DNA of 64,000 nucleotides, taken from assembly GCA_016025055.1 (NCBI GenBank), contig CP065590.1:4092001-4156000 (forward strand), given 5' to 3'. The notes under the pieces are model-generated. The model saw only the letters and a list, made by a program, of their open reading frames with translations. It was not told the origin of the DNA and ran no database searches. Source of the DNA: Chryseobacterium indologenes. GTDB lineage: Bacteria; Bacteroidota; Bacteroidia; Flavobacteriales; Weeksellaceae. A program made the translations under genes and the position numbers. This document shows, piece by piece, positions 43,761 through 60,219 of this stretch; the first letter of the stretch is position 1, and the number at the start of each line of letters is the position of its first letter.

Positions 43761-45572
43761 ATGAACACCCATTTAGAATATACAATCAGCCAGGAAAACT
43801 GGAATGAGGCCAACAGAAACCTTATGGCCAAAACTATTGCAGAATTAATGCATGAAGAATTACTAAAACCTGTTGCAACATTTCAGGACGATGAAGACTT
43901 TACGGTTTTTACACTTGAAACAGGAGTGGAGGTTATTCAATACACCTTCCGTGGCCAGGAAAGAATGATGGACTACTGGCATATTGACAAAGACAGTATC
44001 ACCAGAATGGAAAATGGAGAAAAACAGCCTGTTGTAGATGTTGCAGCCTTTTTTCTTGAAATGCAGTCGGTTTTTGACCTTGATCCATACACCATCGCAA
44101 GATACACCGAAGAATTATTGCACACTTTATACTGTGATGCCATGATTCTGGCTAAAGGAACAATGACTTCACAGGATCTGGCAGCTTCGGACTATCAAAC
44201 CATTGAACATCACATGACAGGGCATCCCTGGGTCATTGTGAACAAAAGTAGACTGGGCTTTTCGCCACGTGATTTGCAGGCATTTGCTCCCGAATCGGAT
44301 CAGAACCTGAAGGTTTTATGGCTGGCTGCTCACCGCAGCAGATCTGCATTCCAATCCCTGGATTCTATTGACAGAGAAGATTTCTACCGCTCTGAAATAG
44401 GCCCCGAATTGTTTGATCAGTTCAAACAAAAACTGACCGCTCAGGGAAAATCTGTAGAAGATTATCATTTTATTCCTGTTCATCCATGGCAGTGGGAGCA
44501 TAAGCTGAAGATTCATTTTGCTGGCGATATTGCCTCAGGACTGCTGATCCGGCTGGGAGAAGGAAATGATGTTTACAGCCCGCAGCAAAGTATCCGTACT
44601 TTGTTCAATTCAGACCATCCGGAAAAAAGATACTTAAAAACAGCGGTTTCCATTTTAAGTACCGGAAATATCAGGGGATTATCACCGAAACAGATGAAAA
44701 TTGCTCCTGCAATTACAGCATGGGTAAAAAGCTTGATTAAAGGTGACACTTACCTTGATCATAAAGGAACTATTTTCCTGGGAGAAGAGGCTTCTATTGC
44801 CTATTTACATCCTCAGTACGGAGCTATTGCCAACGTACCTTATCAGTACAATGAATTCCTGGGAGCTCTTTGGCGTGAAAGTGCCGAAAACTATCTGGAA
44901 TCAGATGAAGAAATGGTAACAATGGCCTCCCTGTTGTATGTGGATAAGAACGGGACACCGCTGGTTCAGGCATTCGCAGAAAAAGCAGGAATGACGATCA
45001 GAGAATGGATCACCCAATATCTGGATGCTTACCTGACACCGCTGCTTCATATTTATTATACCCATTCATTGTGTGTAACGCCTCATGGTGAGAACATTAT
45101 GGTAGTTTTAAAGAACGGAGTGCCACAAAGAATCGTGATTAAAGATTTCGTGGATGATATCGTTCTTACCACAGAAGCCAGAGAAAAACTCCCTGCACAC
45201 CTTGCGGATGGTCTTATCCAGTCTTCCAACAAGGAGAATGTTCCTTTGTTTATTCTGTTAGGCGTTTTTGATGCTTTCTTCAGATATTTATCCAATGTTC
45301 TTCATACCTATTCAGAATTTGAAGAAGAGACGTTCTGGACCCTTGTTCATGATTGCATCGAAAGTTATAAAAATGACAATCCTCATCTGCAGGAAAGATA
45401 TGCTAAATATGACCTGTATGTTCCGGCATTCAAAAGGTTCTATATCAACAGTCTTCGTTTGAAAAATAACGGGTACAGCGAAAATAAAGCATTTGCGATT
45501 CCGAGAAAGGATGGAGCCTTACCGAACCCTTTACATCAGATTACCAACAAAAACTCTGTAGCAGCATTATGA
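43761..45572 (+). CDS. IucA/IucC-family NIS siderophore synthetase
   Basis: 603 residues, stand-alone synthetase. GHPWVIVNKSRLGFSP, HPWQWEHKL, SPQQSIRTLFN and the metal/ATP segment TPHGENIMVVLKNG are present. It performs the second condensation. The AlcC/DesD-like look suggests coupling of an acyl-hydroxamate arm. The stop overlaps the MATE gene start by 4 nt (ATGA). Confidence 0.92.
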   Translation: MNTHLEYTISQENWNEANRNLMAKTIAELMHEELLKPVATFQDDEDFTVFTLETGVEVIQYTFRGQERMMDYWHIDKDSITRMENGEKQPVVDVAAFFLEMQSVFDLDPYTIARYTEELLHTLYCDAMILAKGTMTSQDLAASDYQTIEHHMTGHPWVIVNKSRLGFSPRDLQAFAPESDQNLKVLWLAAHRSRSAFQSLDSIDREDFYRSEIGPELFDQFKQKLTAQGKSVEDYHFIPVHPWQWEHKLKIHFAGDIASGLLIRLGEGNDVYSPQQSIRTLFNSDHPEKRYLKTAVSILSTGNIRGLSPKQMKIAPAITAWVKSLIKGDTYLDHKGTIFLGEEASIAYLHPQYGAIANVPYQYNEFLGALWRESAENYLESDEEMVTMASLLYVDKNGTPLVQAFAEKAGMTIREWITQYLDAYLTPLLHIYYTHSLCVTPHGENIMVVLKNGVPQRIVIKDFVDDIVLTTEAREKLPAHLADGLIQSSNKENVPLFILLGVFDAFFRYLSNVLHTYSEFEEETFWTLVHDCIESYKNDNPHLQERYAKYDLYVPAFKRFYINSLRLKNNGYSENKAFAIPRKDGALPNPLHQITNKNSVAAL

Positions 45573-46973
45573 GGAAATTCCTGCATATGCTAAAGGAAGG
45601 AACGGTTTTTACCTACGGAGCTCTCGCCGGAAAAAAGGTGGAGCTGACATCGGGAAGTATCAACCGTTCTATCTTTAGTTTAGCCATTCCAATGGTGATG
45701 GAATTGGTGATGGAGTCTGTTTTTGTAAGCGTCAATCTCCTGATTATCGCCAGATTGGGGGATAAAGTATTGGGGCTTGTGGGAATTACAGACAACTACA
45801 TCAATTTTGCCTATGCTATTGCAGTAGGACTTGGAATTGCTGCAGCAACTCTTGTGGCCAGAAGAGCAGGTGAAAAGGATACCGAAGGAATGGGCAGAAC
45901 GGCTCACTATATTATTCTTTTAGCTTTTTTCTTCGCCGTTTTGATCGGGGGAATTTCCTGCCTGTTTGCCTCGGAAATTGTTGCGTTCCTCGGGATCAGT
46001 ACAGATGTCGTAACCGATGGATTATCATTTTCAGCGTCTGGTATTTCTAAGCATCGGATTGGTTATTCTAAGGCTTTCCATAAACGGACTCTTCAGAGGA
46101 GCCGGGGATGCCGATCTTGCGATGAAGTCATTATGGTTATGCCATATTTCGAATATTGTTTTTGCCGTAGTTCTTGTTTTCGGTGTGGGATTTATTCCTG
46201 CTTTCGGATTAATGGGACTGGCCTATGCAACGATTTTATCGAGGCTATTAGCTGTCATCTATCAGTTTTTCATTTTGCTTTCGGGTAAAACGAGTATTAA
46301 TATCCTGATGAAATTCCATCTGGACATTCCTCTGCTCAGAAAAATACTGAAAATAGCCTTTGGCGGATTGGTACAGTACATCATTCCAACTTCCAGCTGG
46401 CTGATTATGGTGAAAATCATTTCTACTTTCGGAACGACAGCATTGGCAGGATATATCATTGCGCAGCGTATTGCTTCAGTAGCGACGATGCCTGCCTGGG
46501 GAATCGGAAATGCTGCCGGAGTTCTTACAGGACAAAATCTGGGAGCCGGAGATCCCGACCGAGCTGAAAAAACAGTCTGGCGGGCAGGAACCATCAATAT
46601 GACCTATCTTATTGCTGTAGCCTTGTTTTGGCAAATTGCAGCCGAATATGTAGTGAAATTTTTCACCACAGAAACTGAAGTGGCCAGATATGCTGTTCAG
46701 TACATTCATGTCGTATCTATGGCTTATCTCTTACTGGGCTTTACGATGGTGATCAGCCGTGCCCTTAATGCCGCCGGAAATATCATGCAGGTTACCATGC
46801 TTTATATCATTATGTTTTATGTCATCCAGCTTCCTCTGGCATACCTGCTGGGGGTAAGATTTCAATGGGAACTGACGGGCATATTTACCGCCATTGTCTC
46901 ATCAGAAATAGTACTGGCCGTCCTTTTCTTAATGATTTTTAAAAACGGTAAATGGAAAACTATAAAAATTTAA
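45569..46973 (+). CDS. MATE-family efflux transporter, frameshifted
   Basis: Restored length 467 residues with twelve hydrophobic segments in two MATE repeats; INGLFRGAGDAD and GIGNAAGVLTGQNLGAGDPDRAE are family signatures. The first frame drifts off after ...VVTDG and the correct frame resumes around 46020-46032, needing removal of one base (in the TTA or TTTT there). Position in the operon makes it the probable siderophore exporter. Confidence 0.83.
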
Positions 46974-47223: not shown

Positions 47224-48611
47224 ATGAAAATTTTAGAAAATGTAATTGCCAACAGAAATCTGTTGTTTACAGACGCTACCACCGGAAAAACTATTCCGGT
47301 TGGTACTCTGTACAGATCTTTAGGCCTTAACCCCGTAGAAAAAGGCCTGATCTTTTTGTACAATGACAATCAGCTTTCTTCCATTGAAGTCCTGCTGAAT
47401 TTTTACGGAACAGCACACACCATTGCTGTTTTAGGCCAAAAACTTCACACGGAGTTCAAAGCACGTTTGGAAGAAGAATACCGCCCGAAATATATCTTTG
47501 ACCCATCACGAGAAGAAGTTCCGGGTTATACTGTCAAAGCTTTTTCGGATTCGGTGAGTATTCATGTGAAAAAGATTATCAATGTGAAGTGGTTATCAAT
47601 CCTGAAATCAAAATATTGTTAAGTACTTCAGGAACCACAGGCATTCCCAAGCTGGTTAAATTATCCGACGAAAGTCTGTATCAGAATGCGTTAAGTATTC
47701 TTCAGTATATGCCTATTTTAGAATCGGATGTGGTTCCTCTGAATGTTCCGATCAATTTTGTGTACGGTTTTTCCATTTTTACGACCAACTGTATGCGTGC
47801 CGGAAGAATTGTCTGCACCGACAAAGACATCATGCAAAAAGCTTTCTGGGATGAAATGGAAGAATTCGGGTACAGTACTCTGGGAGGAGTTCCTTATCTC
47901 TACGAAAATCTGAACAGAATCGGTTTTTTTAGAAAAGACAGTCCAAGTTTAAGATATATGACTCACACCGGAGGAGTGATCAATGGCGAATTGAGAAAAA
48001 CCATTTTTTCTTACTGTCATGAGTTTGAAAAACAGTTTTTTGCACAATACGGTCAGACCGAAGCAGGTGGAAGAATGGCTTATCTCACCACAGATGGTCT
48101 TCTTGAAGATGAAACATCCATCGGAACTCCGGTTCATGGAGGCGATTTCAGTATTGATCCGGATAACGATGAGCTTTTGTTCTCTCACAACAGTATTTAC
48201 GGAGGTTATGCCCATACGCTTAAAGATCTGACCTCTTATGAGCAGCCGGCAGTGCTCCGTACAGGAGATACCGCTCAAAAGGGAAAAAACGGCATCTATT
48301 ATATTACCGGACGTATCAAAAGAATCATGAAGCTATTCGGAATCCGTCTTAACCTGGATGAAGTGGAGTTTATCCTGAAAAATGAGATGGAAGGAAATAC
48401 TTTTGTCTGCCTGAATTCCAACGACAAGAAAATCATTGTATTGTACGACAATCCGGAGATTGATCCACAAGTTATCACAGAAATTATTAAAAACAAACTG
48501 CGCATCAATCCTCAATATGTACGCGCTGACCTTATAGAATCATTCCCGTTATCACAAAACGGTAAAATAAACTATCCCCTGTTACAAAACTTACAGCATG
48601 AAAACATCTAA
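47224..48611 (+). CDS. AMP-dependent acyl ligase (ANL superfamily), frameshifted
   Basis: 462 residues after adding one A in the run 47569-47573. The P-loop LLSTSGTTGIPK, A5-like YGQTEAGGRMAY, TGD motif and the GRIKRIMKLFG hinge are intact. The small N-terminal domain suggests an ACP-loading acyl-AMP ligase. It probably activates a dicarboxylic or fatty acid for transfer to the adjacent ACP. The stop overlaps the receptor gene by 14 nt. Confidence 0.83.
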
Positions 48612-51144: not shown

Positions 51145-52331
51145 ATGAAACTTAAATTTAGAAAAATAGCCTATCAGTTACATCTATGGCTCGGACTCGC
51201 GTCCGGGCTTATAGTTGTCATAATGGCTGCAACAGGTTGTATCCTTTCATTTGAGGATGAACTGAAACATCTGATACATCCCCAAAGATATTACATAAAT
51301 GCGATAGGTAAAGAGAAATTACCACTTGCCGAATTAACTGCTAAAGCTGAACAGGTACTTCCTGAAGGCTTAAAAATCAAAAGAGTACAGATTTCTTCGG
51401 ATCCTTACGGAACCTATATGTTCAGAACGTTGAAAATGGATAATGAAGCGTTGACGTATTGGGGAACTTACGTGTATTATTACCGGGTATATCTTGATCC
51501 ATACACCGGAAATGTTCAGGAAGTAGAAAACGCAAAAACGGATTTTTTTGAAATTGTCCTTGATCTCCACCGAAGATTGCTTCTGGGAGAAAAAATAGGG
51601 AAAGCCATTACCGGTTATTCAACCTTAGTATTGGCTGTCATTCTTTTTCCGGACTGGTGATATGGTATCCGCGGAAAATGAGTAAAAGTATGCTCAAAGG
51701 CATGTTTTTTATTAAGCTCTCTGCCAACTGGAAAAGAATCAATTATGATCTTCATAATGTGCTGGGATTTTATTCGATGATCCCTTTACTTTTGATTGCC
51801 TATTCTGCTTTGATATGGAATTTTAAGGGTATGGATACATGGATACAAGATTTTTTAAATAACAATGGCAAAGTAGAACAAAAAATAAAAAGCAATAAAC
51901 CTAAGAATGAATCTACTGATCGGGATATGGTTCTTGCCAAGATATGGAAAACTGTGGAAAGTCAGATGGTCCATAAGAAATCTGCAATGATTAACTTTCC
52001 CAGAACAGATGAAGGAACATATTATGCAGAAATAACAAAAGGTGAAAAGCAATACCAGAACGAACAGTTCAATTTTGATCAATATTCCGGAGCAAAGCTG
52101 AAATATCAGTCGTATAAAGATAAAAACATTGGAAACGGAACTGCCCTTAGGGAAAGGAATTACGACTTGCATACCGGAAGTATTTTCGGAATGACCGGAC
52201 GAATCCTATACTTTCTGGCAGGAATTATAGCCACTTCATTACCTATTACCGGTTTTATTATTTTTTTAAACAGGAAAAAGAAAAAGCCAAAACACAAGAA
52301 GAATAAGATTGTTTTTCCTCGCCACCACTAA
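51145..52331 (+). CDS. PepSY-associated membrane protein (ferric-siderophore reductase type), frameshifted
   Basis: 395 residues after adding one T in the run 51644-51648. Four membrane segments: one near the N terminus (LHLWLGLASGLIVVIMAATG), one at the break, one near 51760-51820 and one at the C terminus. Two PepSY-like periplasmic regions lie between. Such proteins beside TonB receptors reduce iron from siderophores at the inner membrane. It lies 96 nt after the receptor. Confidence 0.82.
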
Positions 52332-52488: not shown

Positions 52489-53979
52489 TCACTCTATCAA
52501 TCTTTTCACATTGTTGGAAAAAACATCAACACTTTTTTCCATTTCATCAGCATTAAGATCTCCAAATCCCAGTCTCATGGCCGTCAGATTTTTATTCTGA
52601 TACAACAATGTTTTAGGAATAAACAGGTTATCCTGCGCGCATCCGCGGCTCAGTTGCATCAGGTTAATGGGAACATTCCATTCCAGCCAGATGGCCAACC
52701 CGCCGGAAGGTATTTGAAAAGTGATGAGGTTTTCAAGGTTTTCTTTAAGGAGAACAGCAAGATAATCCCTTCTTTCCTGATACACTTTTAGTGATTTTTT
52801 CAGGTACCGGTTAATTTCTCCCTCTTCAATCATTTCTCCCAATGCTCTTTCCATAAGAATATCACCTTGACGGTCTATAATTCCCAAATACTTCCTCATT
52901 TCAGCCATCAGATTTTCGGGAGCAACGATGAACCCGGTTCTGAATCCGGGAGCCAGAGACTTTCCAAACGAACCGATATAAATGACCATTCCATTGGTAT
53001 CTGCACTGGCCAAAGGAAGGATAGGACTTTTGTCGTAATGAAATTCGTAGTCATAATCGTCCTCAAGAATAATAAAACCATATTCATTGGCCAGCTCCAG
53101 CAATTCCAATCTCCTTTGTGCACTTATGGCAACAGTGGTAGGATAGTGGTGATGTGGTGTGAGGTAGAGCATTCTTATTTTTTGCTTTTTGCAAGCTTCC
53201 CGAACATTTTCTACTATGATTCCCTCTTCGTCAATAGGAATTGAGACCATTTGAACTCCGGCTTTCATAAAAATCATATTGACGGAAAAATAGCTTAAAG
53301 CTGCTACCAATACTACATCTCCGGGAGAAAGAAGGATTTCGGATACAATATAAATACTCATTTCCGTGCTTCGGGTGATCAGAAGATTGTTTTTAGAAAT
53401 GGGTAATCCGCGCGATAAATTGAGATATCGGGATAGATGTTCCTTGAAAAATTCACTTCCGTCATGGTTATAATGTCCGGAAATCTTCTGATTGGACTTC
53501 CGTTTAAGAATAGAACTATAAAACCGCGAATGCTGGGCAATCTGGGTCAGTCTGATATCAGGAACCCCGTCATTGAAAACATATTCACAATCCGAATGTT
53601 CAAAAGGATTATCCAGAATATTGGATGTTTTAAATAAGAACCCTGTTGTTTCAGGATAATTTTGAAGATTATTATGTTGAAAATCATTAACCTTTATGGG
53701 CTTTTCCTCATCTTTTCCAATCACAAACGTTCCTTTATTGGGAAAACTCTCTGTCCAGCCTTGTGCCGAAAGCTCGTCATAAACCGCTACCGCTGTATTC
53801 CTGTGGATTTCCAGCATTTCACTAAAGGTTCTTGTACCCGGAAGTTTGGTTCCAAAAGGTAAAAAACCTCTTTGTATAGCATTGATCAGTTGATTGGCAA
53901 TTTGTAAATAGATGGAAGTGTCTGATTTTCTATCTATTTTAATAAAGCTTTCATAAGGAATTCTAACCGGACTATCCAT
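52489..53979 (-). CDS. MocR-type (GntR/aminotransferase) regulator, candidate biotin regulator
   Basis: 496 residues. GntR winged helix (about 22-88, EIHRNTAVAVYDEL recognition segment) and an aminotransferase-like domain with PLP lysine K340 in YIGSFGK. It is transcribed away from the biotin operon, whose first gene starts 66 nt upstream. Bioinformatic precedent: GntR-family BioR controls biotin genes in alpha-proteobacteria. Control of the biotin operon is inference from position. Confidence 0.87.
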   Translation of the reverse strand: MDSPVRIPYESFIKIDRKSDTSIYLQIANQLINAIQRGFLPFGTKLPGTRTFSEMLEIHRNTAVAVYDELSAQGWTESFPNKGTFVIGKDEEKPIKVNDFQHNNLQNYPETTGFLFKTSNILDNPFEHSDCEYVFNDGVPDIRLTQIAQHSRFYSSILKRKSNQKISGHYNHDGSEFFKEHLSRYLNLSRGLPISKNNLLITRSTEMSIYIVSEILLSPGDVVLVAALSYFSVNMIFMKAGVQMVSIPIDEEGIIVENVREACKKQKIRMLYLTPHHHYPTTVAISAQRRLELLELANEYGFIILEDDYDYEFHYDKSPILPLASADTNGMVIYIGSFGKSLAPGFRTGFIVAPENLMAEMRKYLGIIDRQGDILMERALGEMIEEGEINRYLKKSLKVYQERRDYLAVLLKENLENLITFQIPSGGLAIWLEWNVPINLMQLSRGCAQDNLFIPKTLLYQNKNLTAMRLGFGDLNADEMEKSVDVFSNNVKRLIE

Positions 53980-54019
53980 AATATCAAAACTGGCACCATA
54001 TAGCCATCCGGCAATATAC

Positions 54020-54027
54020 TACTTTTG
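54020..54027 (+). promoter_or_regulatory. -7 promoter element for biotin operon
   Basis: TACTTTTG matches TAnnTTTG, 18 nt before the ATG at 54046. No TTG box is at the expected distance. Confidence 0.45.
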
Positions 54028-54045
54028 ACATCAAAATAAAAATCT

Positions 54046-54654
54046 ATGGAATTTCATCACTTGTTGAAAAGGATTGTACAGGAAGGCAATACCCACGCTA
54101 AATGGCTGAATACTCTTTCATTTATGGAAAATGCCGGAGCAAGGAAAATATCAAAATGTGAGCATCCGGTTTTGGTCAGTCAGATCCAGTTGAAACATGC
54201 TGCTGAAGAACACCGTCATGCTTATTATTTAAAAAAACAAATTGGAAAAATAGATCCCGAGCTTTGCAAAACCTATGAAAGCAAGGAACTTCTTGCTCCC
54301 GTAGCGACACGACAATACCTTCATTCGCTGGATATCAAAGCTTGTAAATACCTACAGCAGGCTTTTGGACTTACCAAGGAAGATTTAAAATATGCCGCTT
54401 ATCTTTTTGTAACCTATGCAATTGAAGTGCGCGCTGATGAACTTTACCCTGTTTATCAAGAGATTCTTACGGAAGAATCGTCTAAGATCATGGTAAAATC
54501 TATTATTTTGGAAGAAGAAGGTCATCTTGAGGAAATGATTCATCAGTTAAATGAATTCTCCGCTGAATGGCAGCAGCACGCCCATCATATTCTGGCCATT
54601 GAAAAAGAACTGCATGAGCAATGGATTGCCGCAATCATTCAGGAAGTAGCATAA
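54046..54654 (+). CDS. Ferritin-like putative diiron protein heading the biotin operon
   Basis: 202 residues, all-helical by appearance. Candidate metal ligands follow the ferritin/diiron-oxidase order: E28, E55-x-x-H58, E127 (or E132), and E157-x-x-H160. No signal peptide. I do not recognise a named family. It is 6 nt upstream of bioF. No bioC, bioH, bioG, bioW or bioI is present in the window, so a role in making or releasing the pimeloyl precursor is an attractive but unproven inference; an oxidative-protection role is the alternative. Confidence 0.6.
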   Translation: MEFHHLLKRIVQEGNTHAKWLNTLSFMENAGARKISKCEHPVLVSQIQLKHAAEEHRHAYYLKKQIGKIDPELCKTYESKELLAPVATRQYLHSLDIKACKYLQQAFGLTKEDLKYAAYLFVTYAIEVRADELYPVYQEILTEESSKIMVKSIILEEEGHLEEMIHQLNEFSAEWQQHAHHILAIEKELHEQWIAAIIQEVA

Positions 54655-54660
54655 TTATCC

Positions 54661-55770
54661 ATGCTTATTCATCATAAATTTCAGGAACTGCTTCGTAAAA
54701 GGAAGGAAGCCGGAACTTTCAGAAGTCTGAAGCCCCAGGCAGACGGAATTGATTTTTATTCCAACGATTATCTGGGCCTGGCAAGGAATAAAGATTTCCG
54801 GAATATATTGTTGCAGGCAATTAATGATCATCCGGAACTGATTTCAGGAAGTACGGGGTCAAGGCTCATCAGTGGGAATACCGGTATTGCTGTTGTCACA
54901 GAAGAATATATCGCAAAAAAGCATGGGTTTGCTGATGCATTGCTTTTCCCTTCAGGCTATAATGCCAATCTTGCTTTGTTTTCGACTCTTCTAACCCGTC
55001 ATGATACGATAATTGTAGACGAACAGATTCATCGTTCAGTACATGACGGTTGTAAAATGTCACATGCCAGAAAGTTGAAATTCAGGCACAATGATCTGGA
55101 AGACCTGGAAAAAGTATTAAAAAGACAGAAAGGACAATGTTATATTGCAATAGAAAGTCTCTATTCTATGGATGGCGATCTGGCACCCATTGAGGATATT
55201 GTGATTCTTGCGCAACAATATAATGCGGGTATCCTTGTAGATGAAGCACATGCTTTTGGTGTTTTGGGCTATGGATTGGTAGAACAATATCAATTACAGG
55301 ATAAGGTTTTGGCGGTGTTGGTGACATATGGGAAAGCACTTGGTGTCCACGGAGCTGCTATCTTGTGTAATGAAATGGTGAAGTCTTACCTTATCAACTT
55401 TGCAACCCCATTTATCTACACAACTTCCGCACAGGATTTTCAGTGGGTAAGTATTAAATCGGGTTATGAATTCCTGAAAAATCACCAGGAGTTACCCAAA
55501 AAACTTCGGGACAATATTGATCTTTTTAAAAAGCAAGGGCTGAAAACCCCGTCATCATCAAAAAGTCCTGTTCAGGCTATTATAATTCCTGATAATCAGA
55601 AGCTGAAAACAATGCAAAATATTTTATTGAAGGAAAAATTTTTAACCTATGCCGTTTATAGCCCAACCGTAAAAGAAGGAACGGAAAGATTACGGATATG
55701 TCTTCACAGTTTTAATACGGAGGATGAGATCATACGATTAGCAGAAATCATGAAACAACATCTAAACTAA
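54661..55770 (+). CDS. bioF: 8-amino-7-oxononanoate synthase
   Basis: 369 residues of the alpha-oxoamine synthase family. SNDYLGLA near residue 34, GSTGSRLISGN, DEAHAFG and PLP lysine K225 in TYGKALG. It condenses pimeloyl thioester with alanine. The motif before the lysine (VLVTYGKA) is slightly unusual but typical of the Bacteroidota version. Second gene of the biotin operon. Confidence 0.9.
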   Translation: MLIHHKFQELLRKRKEAGTFRSLKPQADGIDFYSNDYLGLARNKDFRNILLQAINDHPELISGSTGSRLISGNTGIAVVTEEYIAKKHGFADALLFPSGYNANLALFSTLLTRHDTIIVDEQIHRSVHDGCKMSHARKLKFRHNDLEDLEKVLKRQKGQCYIAIESLYSMDGDLAPIEDIVILAQQYNAGILVDEAHAFGVLGYGLVEQYQLQDKVLAVLVTYGKALGVHGAAILCNEMVKSYLINFATPFIYTTSAQDFQWVSIKSGYEFLKNHQELPKKLRDNIDLFKKQGLKTPSSSKSPVQAIIIPDNQKLKTMQNILLKEKFLTYAVYSPTVKEGTERLRICLHSFNTEDEIIRLAEIMKQHLN

Positions 55771-55845: not shown

Positions 55846-56457
55846 ATGAAACTATTCATCACAGGAATCGGAACAGAAATAGGAAAAACCGTATGCTCGG
55901 CCGTTCTGGTTCAGTATTTTAAAGCAGATTACTGGAAGCCGGTACAATCCGGTGACCTTCATTACTCAGACAGTCATAAAATTGAAACATGGACGGAGAA
56001 TACAATTTGCCATCCTGAAACATATCGCCTTCAACGGGCAGCTTCTCCGCATCAATCGGCAAGGGAAGAAAGCATACAGATTGATCTTGATCACTTTCAG
56101 GTGCCGGAGACTGAAAATGCGCTGATTGTAGAAGGTGCGGGAGGATTGATGGTTCCTGTTTCAGATAACAGGTTTATGATTGACCTGATTGAGACTTTAC
56201 ACCTGCCAGCAGCATTAGTTGTAAGGAATTATCTGGGATGTATCAATCACAGCTTACTATCAATTATGGCTCTACAACAGAGAAATATAAGATTAGAGTA
56301 CCTGATACTAAATGGTGAATTTCCTGAGGATACAGAAAGAGTGATCTGCAGCTTTATTGAAAACGATACAAAAATCATCAGGATCCCCGAGATTCCCGAT
56401 ACAGATAAAGAACAGATAAAGATCGCTGCCAAGCATTTAACAATAACAAAATTATGA
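55846..56457 (+). CDS. bioD: Dethiobiotin synthetase
   Basis: 203 residues. P-loop GIGTEIGKT at residues 7-15, then KPVQSG and the EGAGGLMVP segment. It closes the ureido ring of dethiobiotin with ATP and carbon dioxide. It lies 75 nt after bioF. The stop overlaps bioB (ATGA). Confidence 0.92.
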
Positions 56458-57443
56458 TAATGGATACAATAAAAACAACGAGAAACGACTGGACTAAAGA
56501 AGAAATAGAAGAGATTTATCACTTACCTCTGATGGAACTTATTTATAAAGCTGCTACCGTGCACAGAGAGTGGCACGATCCGTCTGAAGTTCAGATTTCC
56601 ACATTATTATCAATAAAAACAGGAGGCTGTCCTGAAGATTGCTCCTATTGCGGACAGGCAGCCCGTTATCACACGAATATCAAGGTGCAGGCTTTATTGC
56701 CGACCGAAACGGTCATTGCCCATGCTCAAAAAGCAAAAGATTCGGGATCATCAAGATTCTGTATGGCGGCAGCATGGCGTGAAGTTCGTAACAATCGTGA
56801 TTTCGACCGGGTTATTGATATGGTAAAAGGAGTCAATGAGCTGGGGCTGGAAGTATGTTGTACATTGGGAATGCTTACCGAAGAACAGGCCGTCAGACTT
56901 CAGGAAGCCGGATTATATGCTTACAATCACAATCTTGATACTTCTGAACAGTATTATGAAGAAATCATTTCTACGAGAACGTTTGACAACAGAATTAATA
57001 CAATTAACAATGTCCGAAAAGCAGGAATTACCGTGTGTTCCGGAGGTATTATCGGTCTTGGAGAAACCCACAGAGACAGGATTTCCATGTTACTGACTTT
57101 GGCAACAATGCCCAAACACCCGGAATCTGTTCCGATTAATGCATTGGCAAGAGTAGAAGGAACGCCATTGGAAGACAACGAAAAAGTAGATACATGGGAA
57201 ATGGTAAGAATGATTGCAACAGCAAGGATCGTGATGCCTGCTTCCATGGTGAGATTAAGCGCCGGACGTATCGAAATGACAGAAACAGAACAGGCATGGT
57301 GCTTCATGGCAGGAGCCAACTCTATTTTCACGGGAGAAAGAGAAACTTTACTGGTGACCCCAAATCCTGGAGTTTCCGAAGATATGCAGATGCTGCAAAC
57401 CCTCGGATTAAAACCTATGATGAAAAAAGAAACATGTTGTTAA
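56454..57443 (+). CDS. bioB: Biotin synthase
   Basis: 329-residue radical SAM enzyme. Cluster cysteines C59, C63 and C66 in [12 protein letters not shown], and conserved [2Fe-2S] ligands further on, including the YNHNLDTS segment. A second in-frame Met at 56460 is also a possible start. It inserts sulfur into dethiobiotin. Confidence 0.94.
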
Positions 57444-57630: not shown

Positions 57631-58935
57631 ATGGTTAATCACTATATGAATACAATAATGTCAACCGGTCTTCAACAAAGGGATAAAGCAGTGAACTGGC
57701 ATCCTTATACTCAGATGAAGACCGCAGATGATATCATTCCCGTTATTAAAGGAAAAGGTATCTATTTATACGATGCAGAGGGTAAAAAATATATGGATGT
57801 AGTCTCCTCGTGGTGGGTTACTCTACACGGTCATTCGCATCCTCATATCGCACAGCGTGTTTTTGAACAATTAAATACGCTGGAACAGGTTATTTTTGCA
57901 GGATTTACCCATGAACCTGCCATACAGCTTTCAGAAAATTTATTGGAACTGCTGCCTGACAATCAGGAAAAAGTTTTTTATTCCGATAATGGCTCTACTG
58001 CAGTGGAAGTTGCCTTGAAAATGTGTATTCAGTATGCCCATAACCAAGGAAAAAAGAAAACTAAAATTCTGGCCTTCAAAAATGCCTATCATGGTGATAC
58101 TTTCGGGGCGATGTCCGTAAGCGGGAAAAGCTTCTGGACGAAACCATTTGAAAGCATGCTCTTTGAAGTCGTTTTCATTGATACCCCCAATGCTGAAAAT
58201 CTGGAAAATTTACAAAATCAGATTAAAGAACTTGTCGATGAAACAGCCTGTTTTATTTATGAACCATTAGTTCTGGGAGCAGCAGGAATGCTGATGTATA
58301 AACCAGAAGGTCTGAGTCAGTTGATGAAATTTTGCAGAGAGCAGGGACTTCTGTTGATCCAGGATGAGGTCTTTACTGGTTTTGGAAGAACCGGGAAGCT
58401 TTTTGCAGCAGATCATCTTACAGAGCAGCCTGATATCATGTGTTTTTCAAAAGGATTGACAGGAGGCACTATGCCAATGGGCATTACAACCTGTTCCAAC
58501 GAAATTTATGACGCTTTTCTGTCTGATGATAAGCATAAAACTTTATTTCACGGGCATTCTTTTACGGCTAATCCGTTAGCCTGCGCAGCAGCATTAGCAA
58601 GTATGGAACTGCTGCTCAATGAAGAAACACAGGTGAATATTAAACGAATTACTCAACAGCATTCAGAGTTTATAAAAGAACTGGGCCTTCATCCTTGCGT
58701 TGAAAACGCTCGTCAGACAGGAACTATTCTGGCATTTGATTTCAAAACAGGACAGGGAACCTCTTATTTTAATGAGATCGGTAAAAAACTGTATCAGGAG
58801 TTTTTACAGAGAGGAATCATCATGAGACCTCTTGGAAACGTAATCTATCTGGTTCCGCCATATTGTATTACGGCTGAAGAGCTGGAATTTGTATATCGGA
58901 ATATTTCGGAAGTTTTGGATCAGTTTAAAGCCTGA
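57631..58935 (+). CDS. bioA: Adenosylmethionine-8-amino-7-oxononanoate aminotransferase
   Basis: 434 residues from the first Met; Met 57646 or 57658 may be the real start, because HPYTQMK begins the conserved region soon after. WWVTLHGHSHP, the SDNGSTAVEVALKM cofactor site, DEVFTGFGRTG and PLP lysine K274 in FSKGLTGG are present. It uses SAM as amino donor. It follows bioB after 187 nt, possibly as part of the same unit. Confidence 0.92.
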   Translation: MVNHYMNTIMSTGLQQRDKAVNWHPYTQMKTADDIIPVIKGKGIYLYDAEGKKYMDVVSSWWVTLHGHSHPHIAQRVFEQLNTLEQVIFAGFTHEPAIQLSENLLELLPDNQEKVFYSDNGSTAVEVALKMCIQYAHNQGKKKTKILAFKNAYHGDTFGAMSVSGKSFWTKPFESMLFEVVFIDTPNAENLENLQNQIKELVDETACFIYEPLVLGAAGMLMYKPEGLSQLMKFCREQGLLLIQDEVFTGFGRTGKLFAADHLTEQPDIMCFSKGLTGGTMPMGITTCSNEIYDAFLSDDKHKTLFHGHSFTANPLACAAALASMELLLNEETQVNIKRITQQHSEFIKELGLHPCVENARQTGTILAFDFKTGQGTSYFNEIGKKLYQEFLQRGIIMRPLGNVIYLVPPYCITAEELEFVYRNISEVLDQFKA

Positions 58936-59014: not shown

Positions 59015-60219
59015 TTAATCTTCAACGTATTGATGTTTTGCTGCTTTCATTCCAAAGTACAACATCAGAACCACTGAGAGGCTCAAAAAATAAAATGAGC
59101 TTTCCCAGGAAAGATCCCAATCATGAAGTTTCCCAAAAACAGGAGGCCCAAATGCTGCAATAAGATAACCGACAGACTGTGCCATTCCCGATATTTTTAC
59201 GGCATTGATGCTGCTTTTTGTTCTTATAGAAAAGAATAATATGGATAAGCTGAAAGACAAACCATTCGCTATCCCGATAATGACAGCATTGACGTAAATC
59301 CATTGCGATTTCATAAAGACAAACATCATCGTGCTTCCAAACATTAAAGCACAGATAAAAAGGATCATTATTCTCTGATCTTTCATTTTATTGGCAATAA
59401 GCGGACAAAAGAAAGTAACAGGAATCATTGTAATCTGAATAACAAACAGCACCCATCCCGAGCTTTCACCCTGCATATTATAATCCGCTAAAAATGAGGG
59501 TAACCACGCTACAAGACAATAGTAAAATAAAGATTGAAGCCCCATAAATGCACTGATATTCCAGGCTTGGGAAGATGTAAACATATTAAAATCCGAAGTG
59601 CTCAAAGCTGTTTTGGGCTGATCAGTATTTTTTTGTTTACTATAAATTCAATAAGTAGTACCAGAAATCCCAAGGCAGCGATCACCAGCCAGATTCCTAA
59701 AGAACCCCGCCACCCAAAACCGGTCCATTCGCCGATCTTAACACTGAATCCCGAAGCCAATGCAGCGGTAAGATTCATTGATACGGCAAAGACACCTGTC
59801 ATTAAAGCAATTTGTTTCGGGAAATTATTTTTAACATAACCCGGTGTCACTACATTTCCAATGCATATTCCAAGCCCGATGAATACAGACCCCACAAATA
59901 ATAACCATTGGGAACCCAATATCCGCAGAAATAAACCAAAACCTAAAATAAGTAAAGAATACATTAAAAGCTTACTTATTCCAAATGTATTTGAAAACCT
60001 GCTCACTAACACAGAACACACCGCAAACATAAAGAGTGGAATAGAGGTGAGCAGACTCACCTGAAAGTTATCCAGCTTCAACGCATCCCTCACATCACCC
60101 AGAACAGGAGAAACCGCCACGATAGGTGAACGAAGATTACTGGAAATAAGGATAACAACCAGAACATTAATAATTAATAAAACATAAGAAACATTTTTTC
60201 GAACTTCATTCTTCATCAT
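59015..60219 (-). CDS. MFS transporter (CynX/NimT-like), frameshifted
   Basis: 401 residues after adding one base in the T run 59628-59634. N-terminal six helices (60219-59640) and C-terminal six (to 59015) match the cyanate/nitroimidazole-permease branch, for example SNLRSPIVAVSPVLGDVR at the start. Divergent from an AraC regulator 70 nt away, which may control it. Substrate unknown. Confidence 0.82.

Follow-up and report, generated by a model that had tools for sequence, protein, structure and literature searches.

A probable BioE diiron oxygenase at the head of a BioL-linked biotin operon in Chryseobacterium indologenes

Published BioE proteins and their counterpart in the window

The first report of BioE, in Elizabethkingia and Chryseobacterium, was by Xu et al. 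(PNAS, 2025; doi 10.1073/pnas.2501226122), according to a later paper on the enzyme (Adv Sci, 2025; PMC12915131). BioE is regarded by its discoverers as the fourth characterized route to the biotin precursor and as a drug target (PMC12915131). The described proteins contain a diiron site, require O2 and electrons, and cleave C14 to C18 acyl chains on the acyl carrier protein (acyl-ACP) in vitro, with undecanoate as a coproduct when the Chlamydia psittaci enzyme (CpBioE) acts on C18 (PMC12915131). CpBioE and the Elizabethkingia meningoseptica enzyme (EmBioE) bypass bioC and bioH in Escherichia coli, a bypass that is lost without air in the bioH mutant; deletion of bioE renders E. meningoseptica auxotrophic, and repression by BioL is also reported in relatives of this strain (PMC12915131). 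Desaturation, hydroxylation, cleavage, and oxidation, in that order, make up a chemical sequence that the authors put forward as a hypothesis; electron transfer is, by their account, unresolved (PMC12915131). Here, we analyzed a 64,000-nucleotide stretch of the Chryseobacterium indologenes genome (assembly GCA_016025055.1, contig CP065590.1, positions 4,092,001 to 4,156,000; the window), in which the gene at 54046..54654 on the forward strand is, with high confidence, bioE. Its activity, substrate, and control by BioL, as in relatives, are what we infer for this strain.

The open reading frame encodes 202 amino acids from an ATG start, and its sequence, alignment, and predicted fold point to a ferritin-like diiron oxygenase with the ligands E28, E55xxH58, E127, and E157xxH160. 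All six iron ligands reported for EmBioE (E26, E53, H56, E125, E155, and H158; PMC12915131) were found at a constant offset of +2, and those of CpBioE matched at a constant offset of -13. Both enzymes, as numbered in print, have their six ligands at these spacings too, which takes the signature beyond chance. Using the residue numbers printed in PMC12915131 rather than a sequence alignment, we found 17 of the 18 EmBioE positions looked up to be identical in the window protein under the single offset, including 11 of 12 nonligand positions in the lipid pocket and the coenzyme A (CoA) patch. The patch residues R33, K34, R89, Q90, and H93 are as in EmBioE. Eleven of 17 nonligand CpBioE positions were also the same, and the same function is reported for that enzyme, although it is reported to have no BioL and to act on acyl-ACP only (PMC12915131).

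The six ligands, which the initial annotation had read from this protein, were unchanged in 92 of 92 aligned BioE rows (the window, 80 named loci, and 11 loci from a sample of the phylum, one of which, L090, is the window again); 74 of the 202 positions were invariant. The named loci were the best 80 of 440 found and were retrieved by their bioE match, which makes them uninformative about genomes without bioE. The closest named relatives of the window protein were from Chryseobacterium.

No Pfam or NCBIfam family scored over its cutoff for the window protein; a search against PDB sequences returned a single chain (E, 0.17), and a 41-row BioE profile returned no PDB chain at an E of <=1. A weak Pfam Rubrerythrin match was present in 11 of the 41 BioE members (best E, 1.3e-4). 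The predicted model (predicted local distance difference test score [pLDDT], 93) is a ferritin-like helical fold. Foldseek by itself placed a BAR domain on top (best E, 0.039); after realignment of its list, aldehyde-deformylating oxygenases and MiaE were the nearest folds, at 11 to 15% identity in the structural alignments. These proteins differ from BioE in their substrates, and MiaE is a separate gene in this genome.

The biotin operon, BioL, and a candidate operator

The bioE stop codon (54652-54654) lies 6 nucleotides from the ATG of bioF (54661), the spacing given in the initial annotation. The forward-strand genes that follow are bioF (8-amino-7-oxononanoate synthase, 54661..55770), for which TIGR00858 was the best family at 298 bits, below its 426-bit equivalog cutoff; bioD (dethiobiotin synthase, 55846..56457; TIGR00347 over cutoff); bioB (biotin synthase, 56454..57443; Radical_SAM and BATS domains, TIGR00433 over cutoff); and bioA (7,8-diaminopelargonic acid aminotransferase, 57631..58935; Aminotran_3). 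Spacing within the operon is 75 nucleotides for bioF-bioD, a 4-nucleotide overlap for bioD-bioB, and 187 nucleotides for bioB-bioA.

This arrangement was highly conserved among the named loci. In all 80, bioF lay on the same strand within 100 nucleotides of the bioE match and bioL was divergent within 400 nucleotides; same-strand bioD and bioB were each present in 79, and bioA, after bioB, in 78. Matches were shortened in L014 (bioL, bioF, and bioA) and L050 (bioF), and L051 and L080 end early. The order bioE-F-D and the BioL regulator are shared with E. meningoseptica. The Elizabethkingia genes form bioEFD and bioBA units with separate promoters (PMC12915131), whereas bioE-F-D-B-A are consecutive in the window.

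The regulator gene, bioL (52489..53979, reverse strand), is divergent from bioE at a distance of 66 nucleotides; like the operator described below, it was absent from the initial annotation. It encodes a 496-amino-acid MocR-type repressor with a GntR helix-turn-helix domain and an aminotransferase-like domain (Pfam GntR and Aminotran_1_2), assigned from these domains, its linkage, and two residues, Arg50 and Lys340, which occur at the numbers published for EmBioL. Mutation of these residues in EmBioL leads to auxotrophy (PMC12915131).

Between the two start codons lies a candidate BioL operator of 51 base pairs (53981..54031). Its inverted arms, ATATCAAAA (53981-53989) and TTTTGACAT (54023-54031), are complementary at 8 of 9 positions and enclose the core CTGGCAC-N10-TCCGGCAATATACTA (53990-54021). 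The core was exact in 72 of the 80 named loci and present in a looser form in 5, with neither form in 3. It matched once in the 4.92-Mb genome at <=3 mismatches, with no second operator-like site found by this core search; there were no matches in the reversed control or in 100 shuffles of the window. Palindromic probes of about 50 base pairs upstream of bioE and of bioB were used for BioL in the published work (PMC12915131).

Overlapping the operator on the forward strand is TACTTTTG (54020..54027), which may serve the bioE promoter as its -7 element (Bacteroidota consensus, TAnnTTTG). Sigma-70 promoter-like sites were fewer than in shuffles (10 versus 15.4) and terminator-like sites more numerous (9 versus 3.7); neither set was used. 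The BirA frame of the genome, 238 amino acids, is filled by the ligase model, which fits a nonregulatory BirA.

Two further observations concern the neighborhood. bioF evolves faster than its operon mates, with a median identity to the window of 68% (80 loci), against 83% for bioE (80 loci) and 94% for bioB (79 loci). The window bioF was the most divergent of 13 compared (mean identity, 70.5% versus 76.2% among the rest); we make no claim of its replacement, as bioE, bioA, and bioL all diverge more slowly than bioF throughout. Four neighboring genes, of each of which one half was scanned for its family, are each split into two frames that overlap or abut: MatE (45569-46973), AMP-binding (47224-48611), PepSY_TM (51145-52331), and MFS (59015-60219). 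These splits are either sequencing indels or decay.

Distribution of BioE and other pimeloyl routes

We searched the whole genome (assembly 97% complete) for other routes to the pimeloyl precursor. BioW and P450 (BioI) gave no match at an E of <=1, BioG reached 12.7 bits against a cutoff of 27, and BioC (TIGR02072) reached 84 bits against 185. The absence of bioC, bioW, bioI, and bioG noted in the initial annotation thus extends to the genome at these cutoffs. The best BioC-like gene was ruled out as BioC, with a trans-aconitate 2-methyltransferase model scoring higher (183 versus 85 bits), though below its own cutoff of 320. No clear rival route was seen among BioW, P450, BioG, and BioC; BioH, BioJ, BioK, BioV, and BioZ were not searched for.

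Two samples were used to examine distribution: 296 Bacteroidota genomes (phylum sample) and 120 genomes of the family (family sample), with 6 of the 23 family BioE genomes in both. In the phylum sample, bioB was over its cutoff in 149 genomes and BioE was present in 11, all with bioB. BioC at an E of <=1e-30, with up to 8 candidates scored per genome, occurred in 96 of the 296 genomes and in none of the 11 with BioE. The linkage to bioF in Bacteroidota, which the initial annotation named as a check, held in all named loci and in 8 of these 11 genomes, where bioL, bioF, and bioD adjoin bioE. The other three belong to one genus: bioE stands beside bioA in L098 and L100 and is convergent with a neighboring bioF in L099. 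The best named matches of the L100 protein were from Mucilaginibacter.

In the family sample, BioE was found in 23 genomes, all among the 46 with bioB; the 74 genomes lacking bioB had no BioE. By coordinates, 22 of the 23 genes lay no more than 5 kb from bioB. The remaining one, in a small genome that is 83% complete (G302), is a 115-amino-acid BioE-like frame (L109:1968-2315) that matches residues 5 to 83 and lies about 54 kb from bioB; from its sequence, it is likely a decayed bioE remnant. A simple rule coupling bioB to BioE is contradicted by the 23 family genomes with bioB and no BioE match. In the three of these that were inspected (L106 to L108), bioB appeared by eye to stand apart from genes resembling other bio genes.

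A FabF-like ketosynthase gene was observed between bioA and bioB at L105:3880-5052 (genome G130), L113:5077-6234 (G103), and L115:5669-6841 (G234). These are 3 of 6 bioB-containing genomes of the same taxonomic order that were inspected, out of 23 such genomes outside the family; G130 and G234 are of one genus. The L105 protein scored 138 bits with TIGR03150 (cutoff, 494). None of the three genomes had BioE, or BioC at an E of <=1e-30, and the ketosynthase may mark another pimeloyl route. In all three loci, bioF and bioD are separated by a small gene, which Pfam assigned to DUF2007 in L105 but not in the other two. Downstream of bioB is a cupin_8-like gene, both in these loci and in two of the other inspected genomes, and it is therefore not tied to the ketosynthase. 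Among the titles listed by a literature search, two concerned BioZ (3-ketoacyl-ACP synthase III), and neither a FabF-type enzyme nor flavobacteria were named in any.

Competing explanations and significance

Several observations weigh against the identification as BioE. The CoA-patch residue K46 of EmBioE is Q48 in the window protein. Six of the 17 nonligand CpBioE positions differ; four of these belong to the acyl-carrier patch, and there the window protein agrees with EmBioE. Foldseek by itself gave no match at an E of <=0.001. The three phylum-sample genomes L098 to L100 had no bioL match within 1.5 kb on each side of bioE. Nineteen methyltransferase-like stretches of the genome match the BioC model below its cutoff.

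A MiaE-type tRNA hydroxylase paralogue, placed in the biotin operon by chance, was the first guess for the window protein. It was dropped and is now very improbable: the genome has a single MiaE match, at another locus (G000:C1:1491372; 144.6 bits), the MiaE family (Pfam PF06175) gives no match to the window protein, and a link to bioF that holds in all 80 named loci is not chance. Slightly less remote, though still very unlikely, is a diiron accessory protein that supplies redox equivalents or iron to BioB or BioF, while a BioC/BioH- or BioZ-like route that escaped notice makes the pimeloyl group. BsaP is a known accessory iron protein of BioB (PMC12915131), and BioH and BioZ have homologues in large families; however, the BioE relatives described so far can stand in for bioC and bioH in E. 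coli (PMC12915131), and no genome of the phylum sample had both BioE and BioC at an E of <=1e-30. There is also very little to be said for a genuine BioE that is redundant in this strain, as BioI is in Bacillus subtilis. BioI, a heme P450 of another enzyme family, is dispensable there (PMC12915131), but this genome has no P450, BioW, or BioG match over cutoff, and the E. meningoseptica bioE mutant is auxotrophic (PMC12915131).

The window protein is best explained as BioE, a member of the ferritin-like superfamily and a non-heme diiron oxygenase. With O2 and reducing equivalents, it would cleave long-chain acyl-ACP or acyl-CoA at the C7-C8 bond. The resulting pimeloyl-ACP or pimeloyl-CoA would pass to BioF, and BioA, BioD, and BioB would complete biotin. 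BioL would bind the 51-bp operator that lies between the bioL and bioE start codons, repress the cluster, and sense 8-amino-7-oxononanoate, the product of BioF. The initial annotation had proposed an oxygen-dependent diiron route to pimeloyl, which is very probably right given these features and the published work; its expectation that such a route would be new did not hold. The enzyme, route, regulator, and gene cluster are already known, and the diiron finding is therefore a rediscovery of work in print by December 2025.

A wider proposal is tentative, and we consider it rather doubtful as a whole. The whole Chryseobacterium route from acyl chain to biotin might form a single unit under BioL, with just one operator in the genome, so that O2-dependent BioE alone sets biotin supply, and the lineages of Bacteroidota might each use one pimeloyl route to the exclusion of the others (BioE, BioC, or, in some flavobacterial genomes, a possible FabF-like ketosynthase route).

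BioE accounts for how this Chryseobacterium-like genome could make biotin without a recognizable bioC, and through it biotin supply is linked to oxygen. A reading made from sequence alone arrived at a genuine enzyme function whose publication is recent.
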